A DNA stretch of 45,416 bases from a virus, in the IMG/VR virus record IMGVR_UViG_3300048839_000668, positions 1-45,416 of that record. The stretch is one strand, 5' to 3'. Below the pieces are notes generated by a model. The model made no database searches and was not told where the DNA came from. It was given only the letters and a program-made list of their open reading frames with translations. How positions within the stretch are numbered: position 1 is the stretch's first letter; each line of letters begins with the position of its first letter. Shown here one piece after another: positions 21,586 through 45,416 of the stretch. A program made the translations under genes and the position numbers.

Positions 21586-22236
21586 CTAGTCGTCGGTTGC
21601 CTCATATTGTTTCTTGAGCAATATCTGATTCTTCGTCAGCCACGCCCGCTTGTATTCGGCGTCAGCAAATAGCTTTGAGAAACCAGTCACATGCTTCAAG
21701 CGCAGCAATTCCTCTGGCTCCATACCCAACTCATTGCAGATGTCGGCGTCGGCCCAGCCGTTGCTTAACATCTCGAAGACCATGTTCGACATCCCCGCAA
21801 CGGAATGTTTGCCGCGCGCGCGGTTGTGCCGCACTGTCGACGCCATGCGATCATTCACGTCTTTGTCGATCACCACGACAGGCAACATGCCCCCGCACCG
21901 TTCGCGAATGTCGGCGTTCAGGCGCATAATCGAATAGCGATGGAACCCGTCGACAATGACATATTCATCGTTGTCGGCGTCGTAGATCGTCACCACAGGT
22001 TGGGTATAGCCATCATGGTCGATAGACGTGTACAGCAAGCGCATTTCGGTCTTGGCGACACTGTTGGGGTTGTAGTCGTTGGCGCGCACTTTCTCAATCG
22101 GCACCCAGCGCACATGGTCAATGGGCTGGGTAGCAAAGGGCGACAGGTCGAAAAGCTTCGCGCGCAAGTCGGCTAGGGCCGCTGCCTTGTCCTCTGCCTG
22201 GTTCACGTAGTCAGTTATCAGGTCATGAATGTTCAT
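21586..22236 (-). CDS. ibrB: ParB-domain protein, IbrB-like
   Basis: A 216-residue protein. Residues about 40-130 have the ParB-like nuclease/CTPase fold: VPIEKVRANDYNPN, QPVVTIYDADNDEYVIVDGFHRY (GFHR box), then VRHNRARGKHS. This arrangement, directly after an IbrA-like PP-loop protein, matches the IbrA-IbrB pair known from prophages and E. coli as activators of Ibp gene expression. It probably acts on nucleic acid, but biochemical function in phages is not established. Start ATG lies three bases after the IbrA-frame stop. Confidence 0.7.
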   Translation of the reverse strand: MNIHDLITDYVNQAEDKAAALADLRAKLFDLSPFATQPIDHVRWVPIEKVRANDYNPNSVAKTEMRLLYTSIDHDGYTQPVVTIYDADNDEYVIVDGFHRYSIMRLNADIRERCGGMLPVVVIDKDVNDRMASTVRHNRARGKHSVAGMSNMVFEMLSNGWADADICNELGMEPEELLRLKHVTGFSKLFADAEYKRAWLTKNQILLKKQYEATDD

Positions 22237-22238
22237 GG

Positions 22239-22796
22239 TTATCGCCCCACTCGATTGCGTACCGAAACCTCGAAGTTACGCAGCTTAGTAAACTCAAAAT
22301 CGTTGGCCAGGATGGTATTGATCTGGGTGCGGTACATCTGGTCGACGTTTCGCAGATCGTATTTGCCCGCACTGTGCATATTGTCCATCGCCAGGAAACG
22401 CCGCACATAACGTTTCCGCATAGCCGGGTCGGTGATCAGATGCTCCAACAGGTAGTCGCGATACTCGCGCCAGTCGGCAAACATAAAGGGCAAGTCTTGC
22501 CCCACATAGAAGTCGTCGAAGCCCAGCTTCCCTGCCGTACTGATACCCCGAATCCGGCGCGTGATCCGATTCCAGGTGTCGGCTTCGATCTCTTGCAGAT
22601 AAAACAGCTTGTCAAGCGCAGTTTCGTGATGCACGTTGGAAACGCGCATCATGTGGACGGGAATCCCGTACTGATACATGTAGTCGTAGATACGACAATA
22701 GGGCCAGCCGTTGTCGTGGATGGCTTTCCAGACGTCGGTGTAGCTCCAATCGTAGATGGGATAGAAGTCGTAATGGTGACGCTTACGATCCCGTTG
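22239..22796 (-). pseudogene. ibrA: C-terminal part of IbrA-like protein, separated by in-frame TAG
   Basis: The reading frame continues without any shift after the TAG at 22799-22797. It encodes the DUF3440-type C-terminal part (HYDFYPIYDWSYTDVWKAIH, RVSNVHHETALDKLFYLQEI, DTWNRITRRIRGI, LPFMFADW). It could be produced by amber read-through, or by re-initiation at the internal ATG 22679, which would lack the first part of the domain. The good conservation of the frame after the stop argues that the stop is recent, suppressed or an assembly error. Confidence 0.7.
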
Positions 22797-23345
22797 CTAA
22801 CCCCAAGTGACAGACTTGTAGGTCGGGTAAGTTGTCAGCCCCAGCAAGCGGTTTGGGCTTTCCTCGCAGCGCACCCCCGCAATGTTGATCGCCGGGGCGT
22901 CGGGGTATTCCGTCGCCAGGTAGCGACCAAAGAACTCTTTGAAGCGGTCGGTCCCGTAGCGATTGACCTTGATGGCGTTCGGCTCTTGCGGGCGAATCCA
23001 GACGTCTTCCTTGCCCGCTTCCCAGCAGTAAAGCCAAGGGTCTTCAGGCGATGTCGCGTTGAAAATCTTGATCGGCACTTGCAACCAGCGCGGCTCGACA
23101 CGCGGGTCGTTCATGATCGTGCGGATGTAGTCGATCACCGTCTGCCATTCAGCCTCTTGGTCGACAAACAGCACAGGCAATGGCAGTCGCCCTTTTTCCT
23201 CTGCGACCTGAAGGGCCAGGTTCAAGACGACGGTGCTATCTTTGCCGCCAGAGACGTTGATCACCACGTTCTCAAATTCGTCAAACAGCCAGCGGATACG
23301 ATCCAGCGCAGCGTCGAAGACGTTCTGCTTTAGGTAGACGCGCAT
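22797..23345 (-). CDS. ibrA: PAPS-reductase-like (PP-loop) IbrA-type protein, N-terminal ORF
   Basis: ATG 23345 (MRVYLKQNVF) follows AAGGA and overlaps the GNAT gene by 16 bases. Residues 32-37 SGGKDS form the PP-loop of ATP-pyrophosphatases; FVDQEAEWQTVIDYI and CWEAGKEDVWIRPQ belong to the PAPS-reductase/DndC-like fold. The ORF ends after 182 codons at an in-frame TAG, yet the same frame continues with the rest of the family. Family members transfer or activate sulfur or act on nucleic acid; for IbrA the reaction is unknown. Full length would be about 368 codons. Confidence 0.75.
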   Translation of the reverse strand: MRVYLKQNVFDAALDRIRWLFDEFENVVINVSGGKDSTVVLNLALQVAEEKGRLPLPVLFVDQEAEWQTVIDYIRTIMNDPRVEPRWLQVPIKIFNATSPEDPWLYCWEAGKEDVWIRPQEPNAIKVNRYGTDRFKEFFGRYLATEYPDAPAINIAGVRCEESPNRLLGLTTYPTYKSVTWG

Positions 23346-26098: not shown

Positions 26099-26127
26099 TT
26101 GACATTGTATTGATATAATGCTATGAT
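26099..26127 (+). promoter_or_regulatory. promoter P1: TTGACA-17-TATGAT
   Basis: Perfect -35, 17-base spacer starting TTGTATTGA and -10 TATGAT, preceded by ATTGGGTA. Downstream, GTGACAG (26134-26140) and CTGTCAC (26146-26152) form a 7-bp hairpin in the leader of the first plus-strand gene. Confidence 0.8.
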
Positions 26128-26175
26128 GGAAACGTGACAGGCGTTCTGTCACCCGCAGACTGAAAGGGGAAAGCG

Positions 26176-26391
26176 ATGCTTTACCAGTGGAAACCGGACG
26201 GGGCATTGGCCTGGACGAACATCAGCCGCGACGAAGCCTGTCGCAAGGTGCAGCGCGACTTCGGGTTGATTGCGTTTGCCATGTCGAAGGGCGTGGATCG
26301 CGTGCTGGCACATCTTGACGCAGGTGGGTTTTATGGCGTCGCGGGCGGGGAACTGCGCGGGGTCGATCTCAATCAAGGTGATTCAGACTAG
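26176..26391 (+). CDS. small early protein
   Basis: A 71-residue protein starting at ATG with GAAAGGGGAAAG upstream, first gene behind P1. The sequence (MLYQWKPDGALAWTNISRDE) is mixed, with a central ACRKVQRDFG helix and no recognised family. It ends TAG immediately before the next ATG. Confidence 0.65.
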   Translation: MLYQWKPDGALAWTNISRDEACRKVQRDFGLIAFAMSKGVDRVLAHLDAGGFYGVAGGELRGVDLNQGDSD

Positions 26392-28167: not shown

Positions 28168-28214
28168 GGTCACATCGAAGCAGTTAAGTTAGTTTTCACA
28201 CGGAGACAGGTCAA

Positions 28215-28766
28215 ATGAATTTTTTCAAGCATTGCACCACCGTCGAGCAAGTCAAGAAACTCTATCGCGAGCTGGCAATGGCCCACCACCCCGACCGACC
28301 TGGGGGCGATACCGAATTGATGCAACAGATCAACGCTGCCTACGCTCAAGCCTTGCAGCACATGGACGGTCAGGCCAGCCAGAGCGACGCCGGACAGACC
28401 TACACCTACACCTACAACGCCGAACGTGAGCAAGAGTTGATGGACAAGATCGGAGAGGTGATCCGCAGCGGCATCCTTGACAGCGGCGTCGAAGTCTACC
28501 TGATCGGCACATGGCTGTGGGCGATGGGCGAAACCAAGCCTCACCGCGAGACGCTGGGCAAGTCGGGGCTGGGCTTCAGTTGGAGCCAGAAGCGGCAAGC
28601 CTGGTCGTGGCATACGGGCGGCTGGTATCGCCCTAGTCGCGGTTCCCTGTCTGACATCGCCGCCCGCTATGGGGCCGAAAAGATTGCTGCCGACGAAGAC
28701 CGTCAGCGCAGCACGCCCAAAGGCAAATCCAAGCCCGCCACGCGCCGCAAGCGCATCGCGGCGTAG
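28215..28766 (+). CDS. J-domain (DnaJ-like) protein
   Basis: A 183-residue protein. Residues 7-50 form a J-domain: VKKLYRELAMAHHPDRPGGD with the obligatory HPD, then QQINAAYAQAL. After a Tyr/Thr-rich linker, residues 75-150 (WLWAMGETKPHRETLGKSGL and WSWHTGGWYRP) form a conserved phage domain of unknown role. The tail is Lys/Arg-rich. It should recruit host DnaK, possibly for replication or capsid work. A zinc-finger-like CxxCxGxG protein is encoded 1.8 kb downstream. Confidence 0.85.
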   Translation: MNFFKHCTTVEQVKKLYRELAMAHHPDRPGGDTELMQQINAAYAQALQHMDGQASQSDAGQTYTYTYNAEREQELMDKIGEVIRSGILDSGVEVYLIGTWLWAMGETKPHRETLGKSGLGFSWSQKRQAWSWHTGGWYRPSRGSLSDIAARYGAEKIAADEDRQRSTPKGKSKPATRRKRIAA

Positions 28767-31729: not shown

Positions 31730-31777
31730 GGGGACAGCGAAGCAGTCAAGTTAGTTTTCACACGGAGACAGGTCACA

Positions 31778-32038
31778 ATGTACGCACTGATGGTTCACAA
31801 GTTTCAAGCCGGAGCCGCCCCCACCACCAGCCGCGTCTGGGATATCGACGAGGCCGCGCTCGGTAGTGCGCTGCAAGCGCAAGGCGTCGCCCGCTATCGC
31901 CAAGACGACAACGGAACGACTTTCCTGGGCAAGAACGTGGTCGTCACCGTCAGCGTCAACGACGACGGGCTTTGGGTGCCCGCCCAACTCACCGACGCCA
32001 CAGCCGAATCCCTGATTCAGAAACCTGCCATCGCATAG
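31778..32038 (+). CDS. small hypothetical protein
   Basis: An 86-residue acidic protein, only gene of a short promoter-to-terminator unit. Strand/helix pattern MYALMVHKFQAG, VWDIDEAALGSALQAQG, GKNVVVTVSVNDDG. No family recognised. Its leader duplicates that of the J-domain gene, suggesting co-regulation. Confidence 0.65.
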   Translation: MYALMVHKFQAGAAPTTSRVWDIDEAALGSALQAQGVARYRQDDNGTTFLGKNVVVTVSVNDDGLWVPAQLTDATAESLIQKPAIA

Positions 32039-33633: not shown

Positions 33634-33856
33634 GCCCTATCCCCGCGCTGCACGCCCCGTCACACCCCATAGCGGCCCATAGCGGCACGCTACGCGTAAT
33701 CTCGCAGCATCGCACAGCATGGGCCGCTATCGGCCCGCCAGCGGCCCCCACGTCAAGCCACGCCGCCACGCGTGACCTAGCGCAGCCCCGCCGCAGCGTG
33801 GTATAGTGATCGCAGCCCCGCCCAAGCGATTCTGAAGACGCAGCAAAGGACAGGTC
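33634..33856. repeat. non-coding gap with short direct and inverted repeats
   Basis: CCCATAGCGGC occurs twice in a row (33666-33676, 33676-33686) and its inverse GGGCCGCTAT at 33721-33730; GGCCGC and GCGGCC flank 33722-33745. GTGGTATAGTG near 33800 could be an extended -10 for the next gene, but no clear -35 is seen. No convincing ORF. The repeats could be an operator or a recombination or replication site. Confidence 0.5.
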
Positions 33857-34351
33857 ATGCTATACACACCCAAACAGGCCGCGCAGAGGCTGGGGATGTC
33901 ACCCACGACCCTACGCGCCAATACCGACCGCTACGCCCGCTATCTGTCGACCGAAGCCACTGGCACGCCCCGACGTCTGACCCCCGACGACCTGAAAGCG
34001 TTGGCGTTTGTCATGGCGCGCGCCGCCCAGGGGCGCACCCATCATCAAATCTTGGCCGAATGGGAAAGCGACTTCCCTAGCTTCGTGTGGGAAGACGCCC
34101 CGCCACCCCAGCCCGACGTCAGCGACAGCACAGCCTTGATCCCCGCTGCACAACTGCAAGCCGCCCACGCCCTCATGCTCGACGCCCAACGTCGGGAGCA
34201 AGAAACAGTCGAACGCGCCGACGCCGAACGTCAAGAGTGGCTGGCGAAAGTCGAGGCCTTGCACCACGCGCTAGGCAAAGCCGAAGGCGAACTGCACGCG
34301 CTACGCAGCCAGGGAAAGCCCTGGTGGGCGCGCCTGTTTGGACGCACCTAA
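33857..34351 (+). CDS. MerR-like HTH protein with coiled coil
   Basis: A 164-residue protein. Residues 1-60 form a MerR-type winged helix: YTPKQAAQRLGMSPTTLRAN, then RLTPDDLKALAFVMARAA. Residues 95-150 are a Glu/Arg/Ala coiled coil, and the end KPWWARLFGRT is the aromatic/basic tail typical of phage and plasmid MerR-like proteins. Likely binds DNA as a dimer, perhaps at the repeats just upstream. Confidence 0.75.
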   Translation: MLYTPKQAAQRLGMSPTTLRANTDRYARYLSTEATGTPRRLTPDDLKALAFVMARAAQGRTHHQILAEWESDFPSFVWEDAPPPQPDVSDSTALIPAAQLQAAHALMLDAQRREQETVERADAERQEWLAKVEALHHALGKAEGELHALRSQGKPWWARLFGRT

Positions 34352-34454: not shown

Positions 34455-34497
34455 GGACACATCGAAGCAGTTGACAGGTCAATCAGGAGGTCAGGTC

Positions 34498-34713
34498 ATG
34501 TCCCACCTAATGCAGTACACCGGAACCGATAGCATCGCCCGTTGCGTCTCACGCGGCCCTCGCGCCCAGATGCTCGCGCAGATGGCGCAAACAGTGGAAA
34601 CACTGAAATACGTCGGTTACGAAGTCTATCACCAGACCACGTCGAACAATCCCGCTTGCAGCCTGTCGCACCCAGGCAGCGGCGCATGTATCACGGTCTT
34701 CGTGCAATTGTAG
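34498..34713 (+). CDS. small hypothetical protein
   Basis: ATG 34498 with AGGAGG seven bases upstream gives 71 residues; an earlier in-frame ATG overlaps the promoter. Contains SRGPRAQMLAQMAQTVETLK helix and two cysteines near the end. No family recognised. Confidence 0.65.
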   Translation: MSHLMQYTGTDSIARCVSRGPRAQMLAQMAQTVETLKYVGYEVYHQTTSNNPACSLSHPGSGACITVFVQL

Positions 34714-35487: not shown

Positions 35488-35508
35488 ACGTCTCCCCGTT
35501 GCAGCCTG

Positions 35509-35541
35509 ACGCCTCGACCTGATGGTCGGGGCGTTGCTTTT
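35509..35541 (+). terminator. intrinsic terminator ending the early region
   Basis: ACGCCTCGACC pairs with GGTCGGGGCGT (11 bp, one G-U pair) around a 4-base loop, followed by TGCTTTT. Confidence 0.85.
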
Positions 35542-35817
35542 GCCTGTCGCAGACTGCCCACAGTTGCCCAGAACGGCCCCAGCGGGGCGTTTGCCCCACG
35601 CGTCGCTAGATTGTATCAAGCGGTCTGTTTCCGCATGTCTGGGGGCGTTGGGGGCGCACAATCATGCTACCGATAATGGGGACTTATCGGTATGCCCCAC
35701 TCCCCCGCGCGACGTCTGTCGCACAGGCATAGCCCACCCCGTCCCCCCTGCTGGGGCTGTCAGCCCCCTTCCCAGCAGCAGGGTAGAACATCCGCGCGGG
35801 AATCTTGCGCCAAGCCC
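35542..35817. other. hairpin-rich non-coding gap
   Basis: No convincing gene. Visible structures are ACCGATAA/TTATCGGT (35669-35691, 8 bp with 7-base loop) and CTGCTGGG/CCCAGCAG (35748-35778), inside which GGGGCT/AGCCCC pairs. Candidates are an origin, a recombination site or regulatory RNA structure. Confidence 0.4.
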
Positions 35818-35846
35818 TTGACAGACGCACCAGGCCATGCTACACT
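35818..35846 (+). promoter_or_regulatory. strong promoter TTGACA-17-TACACT
   Basis: Perfect -35, exact 17-base spacer and a good -10. Its spacer lacks the TTGTATTG of the other phage promoters, so it may be constitutive. Only about 65 bases separate its expected start from a terminator. Confidence 0.75.
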
Positions 35847-35852
35847 GTAATC

Positions 35853-35920
35853 GACCTGTCACTTTACTGTGACCTCCAAGAAACGGCCCAGGCAATCGCC
35901 CAGGCCGTTTCTTTATTCTA
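35853..35920 (+). ncRNA. putative 65-nt antisense small RNA
   Basis: The expected transcript starts near 35853 and ends in the T-rich tail of the terminator at 35878-35917. It has an upstream hairpin GTCAC/GTGAC (35858-35873) whose loop and 3' arm, plus unpaired CCTCCA, form TACTGTGACCTCCA (35865-35878). That 14-mer is perfectly complementary to the primase ribosome site and first base of its start codon (42284-42271, minus strand), and 11 of 12 bases match the ribosome site of the gene starting at 38887. No ORF fits in the transcript. Function as a translation blocker is inference. Confidence 0.55.
35878..35917 (+). terminator. intrinsic terminator, possibly bidirectional
   Basis: AAGAAACGGCC pairs with GGCCGTTTCTT over 11 bp and is followed by TATTCT. 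Read on the minus strand the stem also ends in TTTCTT, so it could end the operon that stops at 35942 as well. Confidence 0.8.
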
Positions 35921-35941
35921 TGGAGTATGGCGCCGCCCCTG

Positions 35942-36820
35942 TCAGTAACCGCCCAGCAGCCCTTGCACCCGTTTGACGTCCGGATAGTCTTCTAGGTTGA
36001 GACGCCAAGACTTGTCGCTTGACGTGTAGTGTACCAGCCACGCGCCGCCATGCGGTTGCAGAATCGCCAAAGCTTCCTTACGTGCGCCTTCGCCCTTGAG
36101 CGTGCCGCGTGACGACCAGGGAATCGTATGATTGATCAGGCGTCCGTCTTCAGCCACCAGATCGGGGTTGGGACGCCCGTCCCCCCCGTAGACCCCCTGC
36201 ACAATCCCGTCGCCATACAGCCAGTCCATCACCGCTTGACGCACAGCCGACACTTGTGCGGGGACAAAGCCGCGTGGGGTAGCAAGCTCGACAGACGCCG
36301 CCTCGTTGCTGCCCATGCGTTGCAGTTGGCGCGCCAGGGCAAGCTCCAAGCGCAGTTGCTCTTGGGTCTGGTCGCGTTGTAGCTCGGTCATGCGTAGGTC
36401 ATACAGGTAGCGATCCCGTTGCGCCTGGTTATCTAGCTGCCGCAGATAGACTTCGTGGGCGCGGTGGATTCGCGTATTCTCATAGCCCCATTTGCGACGG
36501 ATCTCCCGATCGGCCGCAAAGTTGCCTGACGCCACAATCAGCGTAAACCGCCAGGCCAAGAAGCCTAGCACGCCGAACGTCAACAGGAACGCCGACAGCG
36601 CAAGCTCGGTCGACGCTTTGCTGGCAAAGTATGCAGCCAACCCGGCCAGGGCCGCGATAAAGACCGTCGCGAACTTCAGGAACAACGCGGTCGACTCGCG
36701 GCTGGCTTGCACCGTCGTGGCATAGACGACATTGGGCGCGTCGCGCGTCAGGTAGTCGGGCGTCGACAAATTGCTATCCCACTGTGCGACTTCGTTCTTG
36801 GGCGTTGTCTTCGACTGCAT
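35942..36820 (-). CDS. membrane protein with coiled coil
   Basis: I choose ATG 36820, preceded by AAAGGGGGTGAT, a near-perfect ribosome site; the open frame further upstream has none. The 292 residues hold two hydrophobic segments (about 46-66 and 72-97), a long Arg/Gln/Leu coiled coil (about 110-170) and a cytoplasmic C-terminal domain (GGAWLVHYTSSDKSWRLNLE). No family recognised. Could be a membrane-bound exclusion or replication-anchoring factor; this is speculation. Confidence 0.65.
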   Translation of the reverse strand: MQSKTTPKNEVAQWDSNLSTPDYLTRDAPNVVYATTVQASRESTALFLKFATVFIAALAGLAAYFASKASTELALSAFLLTFGVLGFLAWRFTLIVASGNFAADREIRRKWGYENTRIHRAHEVYLRQLDNQAQRDRYLYDLRMTELQRDQTQEQLRLELALARQLQRMGSNEAASVELATPRGFVPAQVSAVRQAVMDWLYGDGIVQGVYGGDGRPNPDLVAEDGRLINHTIPWSSRGTLKGEGARKEALAILQPHGGAWLVHYTSSDKSWRLNLEDYPDVKRVQGLLGGY

Positions 36821-36899
36821 ACGATCACCCCCTTTAGACACTGACGCCCCGACAATCGCCAGGGCGTCCATGTTATCAGTCGATACAGGTTTGCGACGC

Positions 36900-37244
36900 T
36901 TAGGTCGCAGCGTGGGCCATACGCGGCCCGTTGACAACTTCGCCGGGTCGAATCAGCCCCAGCATCGCCAGCACTTCGTCTTCGTCTTTAACGATCCATA
37001 AACGTGCCGGCACGATATGTTTCCAGCGCGCATGGAAGTTTTGTTCGGCGTCAGTCAACCCCCGCTTGCTGGGGGGCATAGCATCATTCTTGACTTCGAC
37101 TAGATAAACGTCGCCGCGCCAGCCGACCACCAGGTCGGGAAAGCCTTCGCCTAGCCCCGACGTATCGGCAACCAGCGCGCCCAGGTCGTTCAGGAATTTG
37201 ACCAGGCGCGTCTGGTTGCCATCCGTCTTGCCCCGCCGCCTCAT
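36900..37244 (-). CDS. VRR-NUC domain nuclease
   Basis: A 114-residue protein. GEGFPDLVVGWRGDVYLVEVKND has the PD...(D/E)xK core (PD at about 36-37, EVK at about 50-52) and GLTDAEQNFHARW the following Gln-containing helix of VRR-NUC proteins. These stand-alone domains cut branched DNA such as Holliday junctions. Located in the replication operon. It overlaps the upstream stop by TAATG. Confidence 0.8.
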   Translation of the reverse strand: MRRRGKTDGNQTRLVKFLNDLGALVADTSGLGEGFPDLVVGWRGDVYLVEVKNDAMPPSKRGLTDAEQNFHARWKHIVPARLWIVKDEDEVLAMLGLIRPGEVVNGPRMAHAAT

Positions 37245-38528: not shown

Positions 38529-38696
38529 CTATCGGCAAAGCGCGCGGTCGACCATGACCATTTCGGCGCGTAGCAGCATCTTTGCTGCACAGGCGACGCG
38601 TAGCCAGCGACGGAAAAAGATGCACAACCAGCGACGCACTGTTATACGTCGCAGAACCGCCGCACGCGTGCGCCCCCTGTGGTACAGGCATATCAT
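38529..38696 (-). CDS. possible small basic protein (55 residues)
   Basis: ATG 38696 overlaps the upstream stop as ATGA, which is how most genes here are joined. The product (MICLYHRGRTRAAVLRRITV and on) is very Arg-rich with Trp and Cys. An overlapping ORF in another frame (38503-38691, 62 codons, MPVPQGAHACGG) has no ribosome site. Neither has a recognised family and the stretch may be non-coding. Confidence 0.3.
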   Translation of the reverse strand: MICLYHRGRTRAAVLRRITVRRWLCIFFRRWLRVACAAKMLLRAEMVMVDRALCR

Positions 38697-38887
38697 ACGA
38701 ATAGCCCCGCTTGCGTTTGCTCTGGCTCCACCACTAATGCTTCAGCAATCAGGTCGAGCGCAGCCAAGGCGCCATCGATCTCCGCGACCTTTCTTTGCCC
38801 TTGCGGGGTATCCCGAAAGACCCGCTGGCGCATAACACGCTCCCGATTCAGTACAGCCCGAATGATCTTGATCTCGCGCTCTTTCAC
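38693..38887 (-). CDS. small helical protein, first gene of the unit
   Basis: GTG 38887 with GGGAGG five bases upstream gives 64 residues; earlier in-frame ATGs overlap the promoter. Charged helical hairpin (KEREIKIIRAVLNRERVMRQ; EIDGALAALDLIAEALVVE). No family recognised. Its ribosome site GGAGGTAACAGT resembles that of the primase gene. Confidence 0.6.
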   Translation of the reverse strand: MKEREIKIIRAVLNRERVMRQRVFRDTPQGQRKVAEIDGALAALDLIAEALVVEPEQTQAGLFV

Positions 38888-38927
38888 TGTTACCTCCCTT
38901 GATGGTTGCCAATACTGACCTATACAC

Positions 38928-38956
38928 ATGGTAGCACAACCGCAACACATTGTCAA
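38928..38956 (-). promoter_or_regulatory. minus-strand promoter TTGACA-17-TACCAT
   Basis: Reads GGTATTGACA, spacer ATGTGTTGCGGTTGTGC and TACCAT, followed by GTG as in the promoter at 44.04 kb. It starts 15 bases after the helicase terminator. Confidence 0.8.
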
Positions 38957-40454: not shown

Positions 40455-41357
40455 TCAGTCGCCTAGATTTTTCATCCGATTGCGTGGGGCGTTCTGACGG
40501 GCTTTCGCCTGGGCGGGCGCGTGCTTTTTTGCTGCCGCTGTGATCGCGGGCAATTGTTTGGCCAGTGCGCCCAGCGACAGGTGACGTCCGGCCCAGAAAC
40601 GATCCAGCTTCATCGTATTCAGCGCGTGGGCCACATCTGGGGGCGTAAAGCCGCGCGTCGCGATCTCTTTGGCCCAACGTCCGATCTCCGCGTGATTGGT
40701 CATGGCGTTGGGTTCCCATTCCTCGAGCGCGTCTAGGTAGGCGACGCGGATGGCTTCAGTCGACACGCCTGTATCGGGGTTGACGTAGCTCTTGCTTTCC
40801 GCTTTGGGTTTGGGGCGCGGGGGTGCAGTTGCCTCGACAGTCGTCGGTGATTCTTGCACAGTCGGCGCGCTCGGCTCCGCAGGGGCCGATAGCTCTTTTT
40901 CTTTTTTATTATCTTTATTCTTTATTAAGGTCGCGTTTTCCACATCTGGAAAATCGAATTGTGGTGCGCGCCCGTCATCGCCCTTGAACGCCGCGTAATC
41001 TTCGTCATCCAGGGGGATCGTCACTTGCGTCGGTTGCTCATCGCGTGTGGGGTCGAAGAACGGGTTGAGCGCAGGACATTCATAGGTGTCGGTGCGCCAA
41101 CCGACCACACGCCCTTTGTGAACAAACTTCAGGCGCACCATATAGCCGTGAACGATCAACTCTTTCATCGCACTACGCACCGCTGTGCGCCCGTCCGCGT
41201 GCGAGGCGACAATTTCATCTTCGCGGGCGATCCACCCGTCAAACTGTGCCAGCAGGTTTGCCAACAGGCCACAGGCACTAAGCGACAGCCGCCGATCCCG
41301 CACAGCGGTCTTGTCCATGACGAAAAAATTGTCTTGTTTCTTGACGCGAACGATCAT
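40455..41357 (-). CDS. HTH replication protein (initiator/loader-like)
   Basis: A 300-residue protein. Residues 1-95 form a winged-helix domain of the HTH_36 kind: NFFVMDKTAVRDRRLSLSAC, LLANLLAQFDGWIAREDEIV, GRTAVRSAMKELIVHGYMVR. A low-complexity linker (about 130-190) contains DFPDVENATLIKNKDNKKEK, whose DNA is duplicated at 26.5 kb. The C-terminal 100 residues are helical, perhaps a helicase-loading domain. Gene order with primase and helicase supports a role at the origin. Confidence 0.75.
   Translation of the reverse strand: MIVRVKKQDNFFVMDKTAVRDRRLSLSACGLLANLLAQFDGWIAREDEIVASHADGRTAVRSAMKELIVHGYMVRLKFVHKGRVVGWRTDTYECPALNPFFDPTRDEQPTQVTIPLDDEDYAAFKGDDGRAPQFDFPDVENATLIKNKDNKKEKELSAPAEPSAPTVQESPTTVEATAPPRPKPKAESKSYVNPDTGVSTEAIRVAYLDALEEWEPNAMTNHAEIGRWAKEIATRGFTPPDVAHALNTMKLDRFWAGRHLSLGALAKQLPAITAAAKKHAPAQAKARQNAPRNRMKNLGD
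40888..40971 (-). repeat. segment shared with 26520-26598
   Basis: Read on the minus strand it gives GCGCGCACCA, a 5-bp stem (CCACA/TGTGG), TGGAAAACGCGACCTTAATAA and an A/T-rich purine tract, as in the copy at 26.5 kb. It lies in the linker-coding part of the replication gene. Confidence 0.8.
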
Positions 41358-42271
41358 GATAGATTCTCTTTCATCCAGGTAATGGGCCAGTCGTAGTTTT
41401 CGATCAGGTCGCCTATGTCTTTGATCCCGTCAGGCAGCGACTTGATCTTGGCGCGGCGCATGGTTTGCCATACCCCGCGTGCGCCAATGCGCCCCGCTTC
41501 GTCATTGTCGAATAGCAGCGTCACGCGCGGCACGCCCGCAAAGAAACGCGCCCACTCTGCTTTCCAGGTTGCCGCGCCCGCTGTCCCCGATACTGCTGGG
41601 TAGCCGTACTGGTTGAGCAACAGGCAGTCGATCTCCCCTTCGCAGACAATGACATGAGGCTCGGTCGCCAGCACTTCGGCGTTAAAGATGCCCGCGCGCG
41701 AGTTGGCGACGCAGATATACTTGGCGTCGATCCCGTCGGGGTTGTGGTCATCGCGGCGTCGCTTGACGCCAAAGGGGACATTGCGATAGAGGTGGGGAAT
41801 GGTATAGCGACGTCCGTCCCAACCTAGCAAGTGCTGGTCGACAATCGGGTCCATCAGGCCACGCGCATACCAATATTCGCGGCGCGCCGGGGGCATGGTG
41901 TCATGCCATCGCCGCACGTCGGCCATATCAATTTTCAGCTTGGGTTTGGGTTTGGGCGCCGCAAGACGTTCTGGCTGCGGGGTGCGGGCGGGCGCAATGT
42001 CTAGCCCCCCCAGACGGTCGACCACATCCTGAAAATGCGTCGCAGCATTGTAGCCCGCCCCAAAGTAGAAGCGGCCCACAAAGTCGATCACATCGCCGCC
42101 GACGCCTTCACCAAAATCATACCAGTGACCGTCGTCGTAGATATGCACGCTGGGCGTACCGTCAGATCGCCAGGGTGCAGAAACTTTCTGCCGGACAATT
42201 GGCGCGCCTGTGAGACGCTCAACTGTCGGGCCAAGCGGGTTGCTCCGCTTGACTTGATCCAGGTCTACCAT
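41354..42271 (-). CDS. DNA primase, Toprim type, with altered zinc-finger region
   Basis: A 305-residue protein, ATG eight bases after TGGAGG. Residues 30-65 align with the CHC2 zinc-binding region of primases (GTPSVHIYDDGHWYDFGEGV, GGDVIDFV), but all four metal ligands are replaced (A32, R35, D52, E55). Toprim residues are intact: VIVCEGEID (207-215) and LLFDNDEAG (252-260). It should make primers for the adjacent DnaB-like helicase. Loss of zinc ligands suggests another way of template binding. Confidence 0.85.
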   Translation of the reverse strand: MVDLDQVKRSNPLGPTVERLTGAPIVRQKVSAPWRSDGTPSVHIYDDGHWYDFGEGVGGDVIDFVGRFYFGAGYNAATHFQDVVDRLGGLDIAPARTPQPERLAAPKPKPKLKIDMADVRRWHDTMPPARREYWYARGLMDPIVDQHLLGWDGRRYTIPHLYRNVPFGVKRRRDDHNPDGIDAKYICVANSRAGIFNAEVLATEPHVIVCEGEIDCLLLNQYGYPAVSGTAGAATWKAEWARFFAGVPRVTLLFDNDEAGRIGARGVWQTMRRAKIKSLPDGIKDIGDLIENYDWPITWMKENLS

Positions 42272-42305
42272 ACTGTGACCTCCATTTCACTTGATGGTTT
42301 TCCCT

Positions 42306-43567: not shown

Positions 43568-43602
43568 GCCCTAGAAGTTGCCTACGTCGCCGCTTCTAGG
43601 GC
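43568..43602 (-). other. 10-bp inverted repeat over the regulator stop codon
   Basis: GCCCTAGAAG and CTTCTAGGGC pair perfectly with a 15-base loop containing the stop codon. There is no T run on the minus strand; it may protect the 3' end of the regulator mRNA or attenuate read-through. Confidence 0.5.
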
Positions 43603-43992
43603 GAATACTTTTCCCTGGGGTAAAACCTCCAACTTGGGATGCACCACACGGAAGTAACCGACCAGAATACGGATAAACACCGAAACTTCGGTATTGTACA
43701 TACGCGCCAATTCTTCCACCAGCTCGCGTTCTTCGTCGCTTACGCGCACTTGCAGCCAGCGGCTCCCATCCTTGGCAGTCGTCGCGCTCGGCGGCTTGCC
43801 CGCCATCGGACGTCCACCTTCTTCCAGAATCGGATAGACTTGCAAGCGCATCGGCGCGGCGGCAATCTGAGCAATCGCCTTGCGAATAAACGTACTCGCA
43901 TCCAGTCCGTAGCTGGCAGCAACCTCGTTGACAACCTCGCGTTCGGCGTCGTCCATCTTGACTTGCAAAAACTTGTTCCGCTTAACTGCCAT
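43582..43992 (-). CDS. tandem ribbon-helix-helix regulator
   Basis: ATG 43992 has AGGTGGG seven bases upstream; the longer open frame overlaps the promoter. The 136-residue product carries two copies of an RHH-like unit: residues about 5-45 (FLQVKMDDAEREVVNEVAAS, FIRKAIAQI) and about 72-112 (WLQVRVSDEERELVEELARM, FIRILVGYF). LQVK/LQVR would be the DNA-contacting strands, so one chain could form the normally dimeric DNA-binding unit. It lies beside a divergent promoter pair and may repress both, as well as the related promoters elsewhere. Confidence 0.65.
   Translation of the reverse strand: MAVKRNKFLQVKMDDAEREVVNEVAASYGLDASTFIRKAIAQIAAAPMRLQVYPILEEGGRPMAGKPPSATTAKDGSRWLQVRVSDEERELVEELARMYNTEVSVFIRILVGYFRVVHPKLEVLPQGKVFALEAAT

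Positions 43993-44588: not shown

Positions 44589-45416
<828 letters not shown>

Follow-up and report, generated by a model that had tools for sequence, protein, structure and literature searches.

What is the function of a complete promoter-terminator unit that holds no gene and lies where two groups of phage genes converge? The window, that is the whole stretch of DNA analysed here, is an entire virus record of 45,416 bases with about 59% G+C, in which the rightward and the leftward genes meet at a gap of 454 nt (35488-35941; Table 1). The rightward operon has its own terminator at 35507-35536, while the last gene of the leftward operon (35942-36937) stops at 35942, and the hairpin of the unit lies 29 nt past this stop. 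A first-pass annotation had read the unit as the source of a small RNA antisense to the ribosome site of the primase gene. We find that the unit and the complementarity are real and that the function, as a prediction, is plausible.

Table 1. Features of the window that bear on the predicted RNA and its putative targets.
Feature	Position	Strand	Basis or remark
Structural genes (terminase, portal, major head, tape measure)	0-21 kb	-	
Early genes, rightward	26-35.5 kb	+	
Replication genes, leftward (DnaB helicase, DnaD-like initiator, Toprim primase)	36-43 kb	-	
DNA primase gene (Toprim)	41354..42271	-	primase by PHROG
Sigma-70-type promoter TTGACA-17-TACACT, TG before -10	35818..35846	+	sequence
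Intrinsic terminator, 11-bp outer stem and inner stem, T-rich tail on +	35878..35913	+	
Predicted small RNA, ~68 nt	35853..35920	+	ends deduced from promoter and terminator
5' module GACCTGTC, complement of GACAGGTC in leaders of 28215, 31778, 33857 and 34498	35853..35860	+	
Small hairpin GUCAC-UUUACU-GUGAC between the two modules; CUCC left single-stranded	35858..35873	+	
14-nt anti-primase module TACTGTGACCTCCA	35865..35878	+	
ORF opposite the RNA, judged non-coding	35662..35862	-	codon score -0.35
Main target, primase ribosome site TGGAGGTCACAGTA	42271..42284	-	
Second leftward target GGGAGGTAACAGTG before gene 38693-38887	38885..38898	-	cofold rank 4
GTGACAGG in leader of gene 26176-26391, complement of the RNA's CCUGUCAC	26134..26141	+	
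GACAGGTC in leader of gene 28215-28766	28205..28212	+	
GACAGGTCACA in leader of gene 31778-32038, partly complementary to both modules	31767..31777	+	
GACAGGTC directly before ATG of gene 33857-34351	33849..33856	+	cofold rank 2
GACAGGTC and GGAGGTCA in leader of gene 34498-34713	34473..34493	+	cofold rank 3

The -35 element TTGACA (35818-35823) and the -10 element TACACT (35841-35846) are separated by a spacer of 17 nt, and both the promoter and the 11-bp terminator stem were found where the annotation had placed them. In 1.05% of dinucleotide shuffles of the 454-nt gap, one strand or the other carried a promoter scoring 10/12 or better, and none of 2000 had a perfect TTGACA followed by 17 nt and TG. 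The window has just one promoter with a terminator no more than 110 nt behind it, and 60 shuffled windows had none. Base composition alone is thus an improbable source of the unit. The RNA predicted for 35853-35920 has a folding energy of -29.8 kcal/mol (z = -7.95) and forms the hairpin GUCAC-UUUACU-GUGAC, a CUCC linker and the terminator, in that order, and, as judged from the sequence, its dedicated promoter and intrinsic terminator would deliver a transcript in the sar-like range of about 60-80 nt. Coding potential is absent from both strands of the unit, in agreement with its earlier description as an isolated transcription unit with no gene between promoter and terminator.

Searches of the unit against Rfam families (C4, sar, OOP and others) gave no match at gathering score, the best sub-threshold hits being ftsZ-DE (E 0.19, minus strand) and BSnc120 (E 0.32, plus strand), and membership of a known RNA family was rejected on this basis. 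A reading of the small hairpin as a protein operator, acting as a DNA site, was likewise discarded, since the palindrome GTCAC-N6-GTGAC was found only at 35858 and is not repeated at other promoters. The stretch upstream of the unit (35537-35817) is weakly more stable in structure than its shuffles (z -1.84); it contains a perfect 9-bp inverted repeat, TACCGATAA/TTATCGGTA (35668-35692), and a CCCTGCTG hairpin (35743-35783), both upstream of the RNA promoter and both unexplained.

The alternative that survives best is that the hairpin is an ordinary terminator for the converging leftward operon, that the promoter-like site beside it is incidental, and that the 14-nt match to the primase gene is a rare CCTCC/Shine-Dalgarno coincidence. 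Its position shortly past the stop of 35942-36937 fits this account, as does the UUUCUU that follows the GC core on the minus strand as well as on the plus strand; from these features the terminator may also end the leftward operon. The rightward operon, however, is already terminated upstream, and the perfect TTGACA-17-TG arrangement, which shuffling of the gap never reproduced, is hard to reconcile with an incidental site. On balance we hold this explanation to be possible, though unlikely.

The antisense reading rests on the 14-mer TACTGTGACCTCCA, which is present without mismatch at only two places in the window, 35865-35878 and 42271-42284. At the latter place the minus strand reads TGGAGGTCACAGTA, which runs from the Shine-Dalgarno through the A of the primase start codon, and the identity reported in the first-pass annotation was confirmed there and exceeds chance. 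For match tests the set of ribosome sites comprised the 66 usable gene starts that were called. Shuffling of the 30-nt front half of the RNA, with CCTCC kept in place, gave a match of at least 14 nt to any of the 66 sites in 4 of 20,000 cases, and the same was true of 0.09% of genomic 30-mers. Complementarity to a phage ribosome site thus extends, as in a sar-like RNA, 8-9 nt past the Shine-Dalgarno core (14 nt, shuffle P 2e-4), and a match of this rarity, with a second leader match present, argues against mere coincidence beside an ordinary terminator. The duplex energy of the primase pairing (-35.9) ranked first of the 66 sites and was equalled by none of 300 shuffles. Primase also came first by cofold gain, a measure that deducts the energy spent on opening the two RNAs (-18.5 kcal/mol, against -15.4 for the next site and a mean of -4.8), but this gain was reached at some ribosome site by 12.7% of shuffled RNAs. 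The length of the primase match is therefore beyond chance, and its net pairing strength is good but not extraordinary, which leaves the ordinary terminator with a coincidental match some support. The RNA-RNA prediction over ribosome sites that the annotation had called for thus upheld primase as the foremost target but not an exceptional pairing, and the proposal that the RNA could switch off primase was, as worded, unsupported.

The second leftward match precedes the GTG of gene 38693-38887, where 38885-38898 agrees with the 14-mer at 11 of 14 positions, equivalent to the 11 of 12 over ACTGTnACCTCC noted previously, and CATCAAG stands upstream in both this leader and that of primase. New here is the observation that four rightward early genes have, close to their start codons, the sequence GACAGGUC, to which the first eight bases of the RNA, GACCUGUC, are complementary. 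The cofold order after primase was 33857, 34498, 38887 and 31778, mostly first genes behind strong early promoters, and the high rank of the early leaders arises because the 5' end of the RNA complements their GACAGGUC. The leader of 26176 carries GUGACAGG. The earlier target set, primase and the operon of 38887, has consequently to be redrawn, as the 5' module is directed no less at the leaders of the rightward early genes than at that operon.

Complementarity of at least 8 nt to the RNA was found at five ribosome sites (shuffle P 0.004, genomic P 0.012). The best complement was 6.8 nt in the promoter-proximal early leaders and 4.45 nt in 56 other ribosome sites (P 2.5e-4), and the enrichment persisted with primase left out (6.0 nt, P 9e-4; RNA-shuffle P 0.0015); these values are from the test as repeated without gene 33857, which had first been included for its high score. 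It became weaker when related leaders, which are not independent, were removed (P 0.003 to 0.012), and by energy with primase removed it was not significant (P 0.11). The summed leader match was 69 for antisense against 49 for sense and 52 for reversed sequences, in a set that includes 33857, added after scoring high, and the early-leader excess is limited to the antisense direction. GACAGGTC is itself a common word in this genome, with 15 copies on both strands, the majority outside leaders.

We consider it most likely, at a probability of roughly 0.5, that the unit encodes a self-terminating, trans-acting antisense RNA that would damp translation from the leaders of primase and other early genes. 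The front 26 nt of this RNA would comprise two modules, GACCUGUC and UACUGUGACCUCCA, with the small hairpin between them and CUCC unpaired, and the 3' module would pair with the primase mRNA over the Shine-Dalgarno and as far as the first base of AUG. The primase leader is predicted to fold with its Shine-Dalgarno in the loop of GUGA-AAUGGAGG-UCAC, and pairing would probably start between the free CUCC and the GGAG in this loop, with the GUGAC stem opening next; such a loop-to-linker contact could lead through strand exchange to a 14-bp duplex covering the primase ribosome site. The 5' module, together with the shared GACCU, would form weaker duplexes with leaders of the AGGUCA type in other early operons. 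As occupied ribosome sites would go untranslated, the RNA would damp replication and early gene expression. Its transcription, its pairing in the cell, the repression and its timing are all predictions from sequence features. If true, a trans-acting phage RNA working on repeated early and replication leaders would provide a simple post-transcriptional coordination of many operons.

The other strong promoters of the phage have GGTATTGACATTGTATTG...GTGnTATGATGG in common, that is TATTGACA repeats across the -35, mostly with GTGnTA before the -10; they lie at 26099, 27722, 28139, 31701, 34426 and 44128 on the plus strand and at 38956, 40445 and 44066 on the minus strand. These repeats are probably a repressor operator, perhaps bound by the ribbon-helix-helix (RHH) protein encoded at 43582-43992 behind one such promoter. 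In a Nitrospinota groundwater contig (L151, 3033-3059) the same motif, TATTGACATTGTATTGACA, lies ahead of a gene resembling RHH antitoxins, next to which is a GNAT-like gene. The promoter at 35818 is free of TATTGACA repeats, and the RNA would thus be made independently of that control. An RNA without TATTGACA-type control could set a threshold or serve as a maintained brake. That the two anti-leader modules in one RNA form a global brake on the early and replication operons, driven by a promoter outside early control, is a wider claim which we regard as rather unlikely.

The RNA might also be real and act otherwise: it could serve as a general decoy of anti-Shine-Dalgarno type, have host mRNAs as its targets, or block leftward read-through by the mere act of being transcribed. 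The single-stranded CUCC does resemble the 16S anti-Shine-Dalgarno, and the phage RNAs DicF and PreS target host mRNAs (PMC12197685); the primase match, however, runs 8-9 nt beyond the Shine-Dalgarno core, and leaders with a weak Shine-Dalgarno carry the GACAGGTC match too, which renders such modes of action improbable.

One of the three results named by the first-pass annotation as fatal to the antisense reading, that the 14-mer is the ribosome site of a translated minus-strand ORF, found no support. The minus strand does read GGAGGTCACAGTAAAGTG, with a GTG 9 nt after GGAGG that opens the frame 35662-35862, but this frame scores -0.35 per codon, where most real genes reach about +0.2 to +0.5, its second-position GC is the highest, and no minus-strand promoter was found upstream; a translated gene was rejected on both counts. 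Quite improbable, too, is that the unit descends, in inverted orientation, from one of the translation leaders of the phage itself (GGAGGTCACAG ... GACAGGTC, minus strand), for example through loss of a leftward gene or a rearrangement, and is now functionless, for although the open frame after GGAGG and the recurrence of leader motifs in the phage would suit it, the frame is non-coding and without promoter, the leader similarity ends at the motif, and the plus-strand promoter and terminator bracket exactly the same stretch. Such an origin is also compatible with the antisense RNA.

Most of what is known about antisense RNA control in phages comes from a small number of enterobacterial phages, in which such an RNA usually has a single target. 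The sar RNA of P22 is encoded opposite its own target, the c4 RNA is processed from the immI operon leader, and the CI RNA of P4 controls a primase operon through base pairing, causing transcription to terminate in the alpha operon leader, from which it is itself processed. The window RNA would have primase as a target in common with P4, but the P4 mode is termination and the P4 RNA is leader-derived. P22 sar is a phage RNA of 68/69 nt that pairs with the ant translation start and blocks it (PMC12197685). The window RNA is like it in its length of about 68 nt and its complementarity to the translation start of a phage mRNA, but its locus lies 6.4 kb away from the start of primase, and its action would extend to replication and several leaders of early genes; sequence relation to sar was compared via Rfam alone. 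The c4 RNA of P1 and P7 pairs around a ribosome site through stretches located in loops (PMC12197685), whereas the window RNA has a dedicated promoter and terminator and no Rfam match at gathering score. The OOP RNA of lambda, a self-terminating RNA of 77 nt with its own promoter, runs counter to the mRNA of the replication operon and has been linked to inhibition of replication (PMC3349717); its antisense pairing is in cis, at the 3' end of cII, while the window RNA complements ribosome sites elsewhere. The statement that no phage RNA of this layout had been described was therefore too strong, since OOP comes close to it in layout, and sar and c4 in mode.

No relative of the early region was found in the viral_contigs or phages collections. 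The viral_contigs were scanned with the primase, the helicase, the 35942 and 42354 genes, the promoter motif and the 14-mer, the phages and plasmids were searched by DNA, and the genome_contigs by terminase and promoter motif. Long relatives have only the terminase, portal and minor-head genes in common with the window phage, and the nearest of them (the L070 record) nothing across the early region. The exact 14-mer is present in 62 viral contigs, which we take as about chance for a 14-mer, and the examined stretches of these contigs contained no primase match. Conservation support for the RNA unit is thus absent, a further point on the side of an ordinary terminator with an incidental promoter-like site.

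A parallel to the proposed antisense RNA comes from cluster K mycobacteriophages, in which repeated start-associated sequences at many early start codons reach beyond the Shine-Dalgarno, and for which an RNA or a protein was proposed as partner (PMC3203893). Repeated early-start sequences are shared with the window phage, but sequence and host differ. Adephagia, Anaya, Validus, Niklas and Enkosi carry a single inverse start-associated sequence in the loop, CCTCCTATCC, of a long hairpin. In Adephagia (JF704105; L155, 38640-38730) this hairpin is within the gp92-gp93 gap, where late transcription has been reported to begin (PMC11373665). Besides L155, the records with the inverse sequence are L156 (39871-39883), L157, L159 and L160; in Ekdilam (L158) the loop is altered, and in Keshu (L161) and SirPhilip (L162) the inverse sequence is absent at the same place despite 15-17 start-associated sequences. 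By analogy, the logic of a brake RNA might exist in some cluster K mycobacteriophages, a parallel that is a lead and not support for the window RNA. The window RNA, if it acts as proposed, would supply a concrete hypothesis for the partner of the start-associated sequences, a question open since 2011.

Outside the region of the RNA, a ParB-like nuclease, a DUF3440 protein and a PAPS-reductase-like protein adjoin one another at 21586-23345 on the minus strand of the window, an arrangement resembling the IbrA/IbrB pair. The terminase large subunit at 1561-4434 of L067 has a large in-frame, intein-like insertion at the P-loop (GGGK ... HNSDALLM). Close to the end of the record, the 12-base GGCAACGGCAAC is repeated in tandem at 45055-45120.
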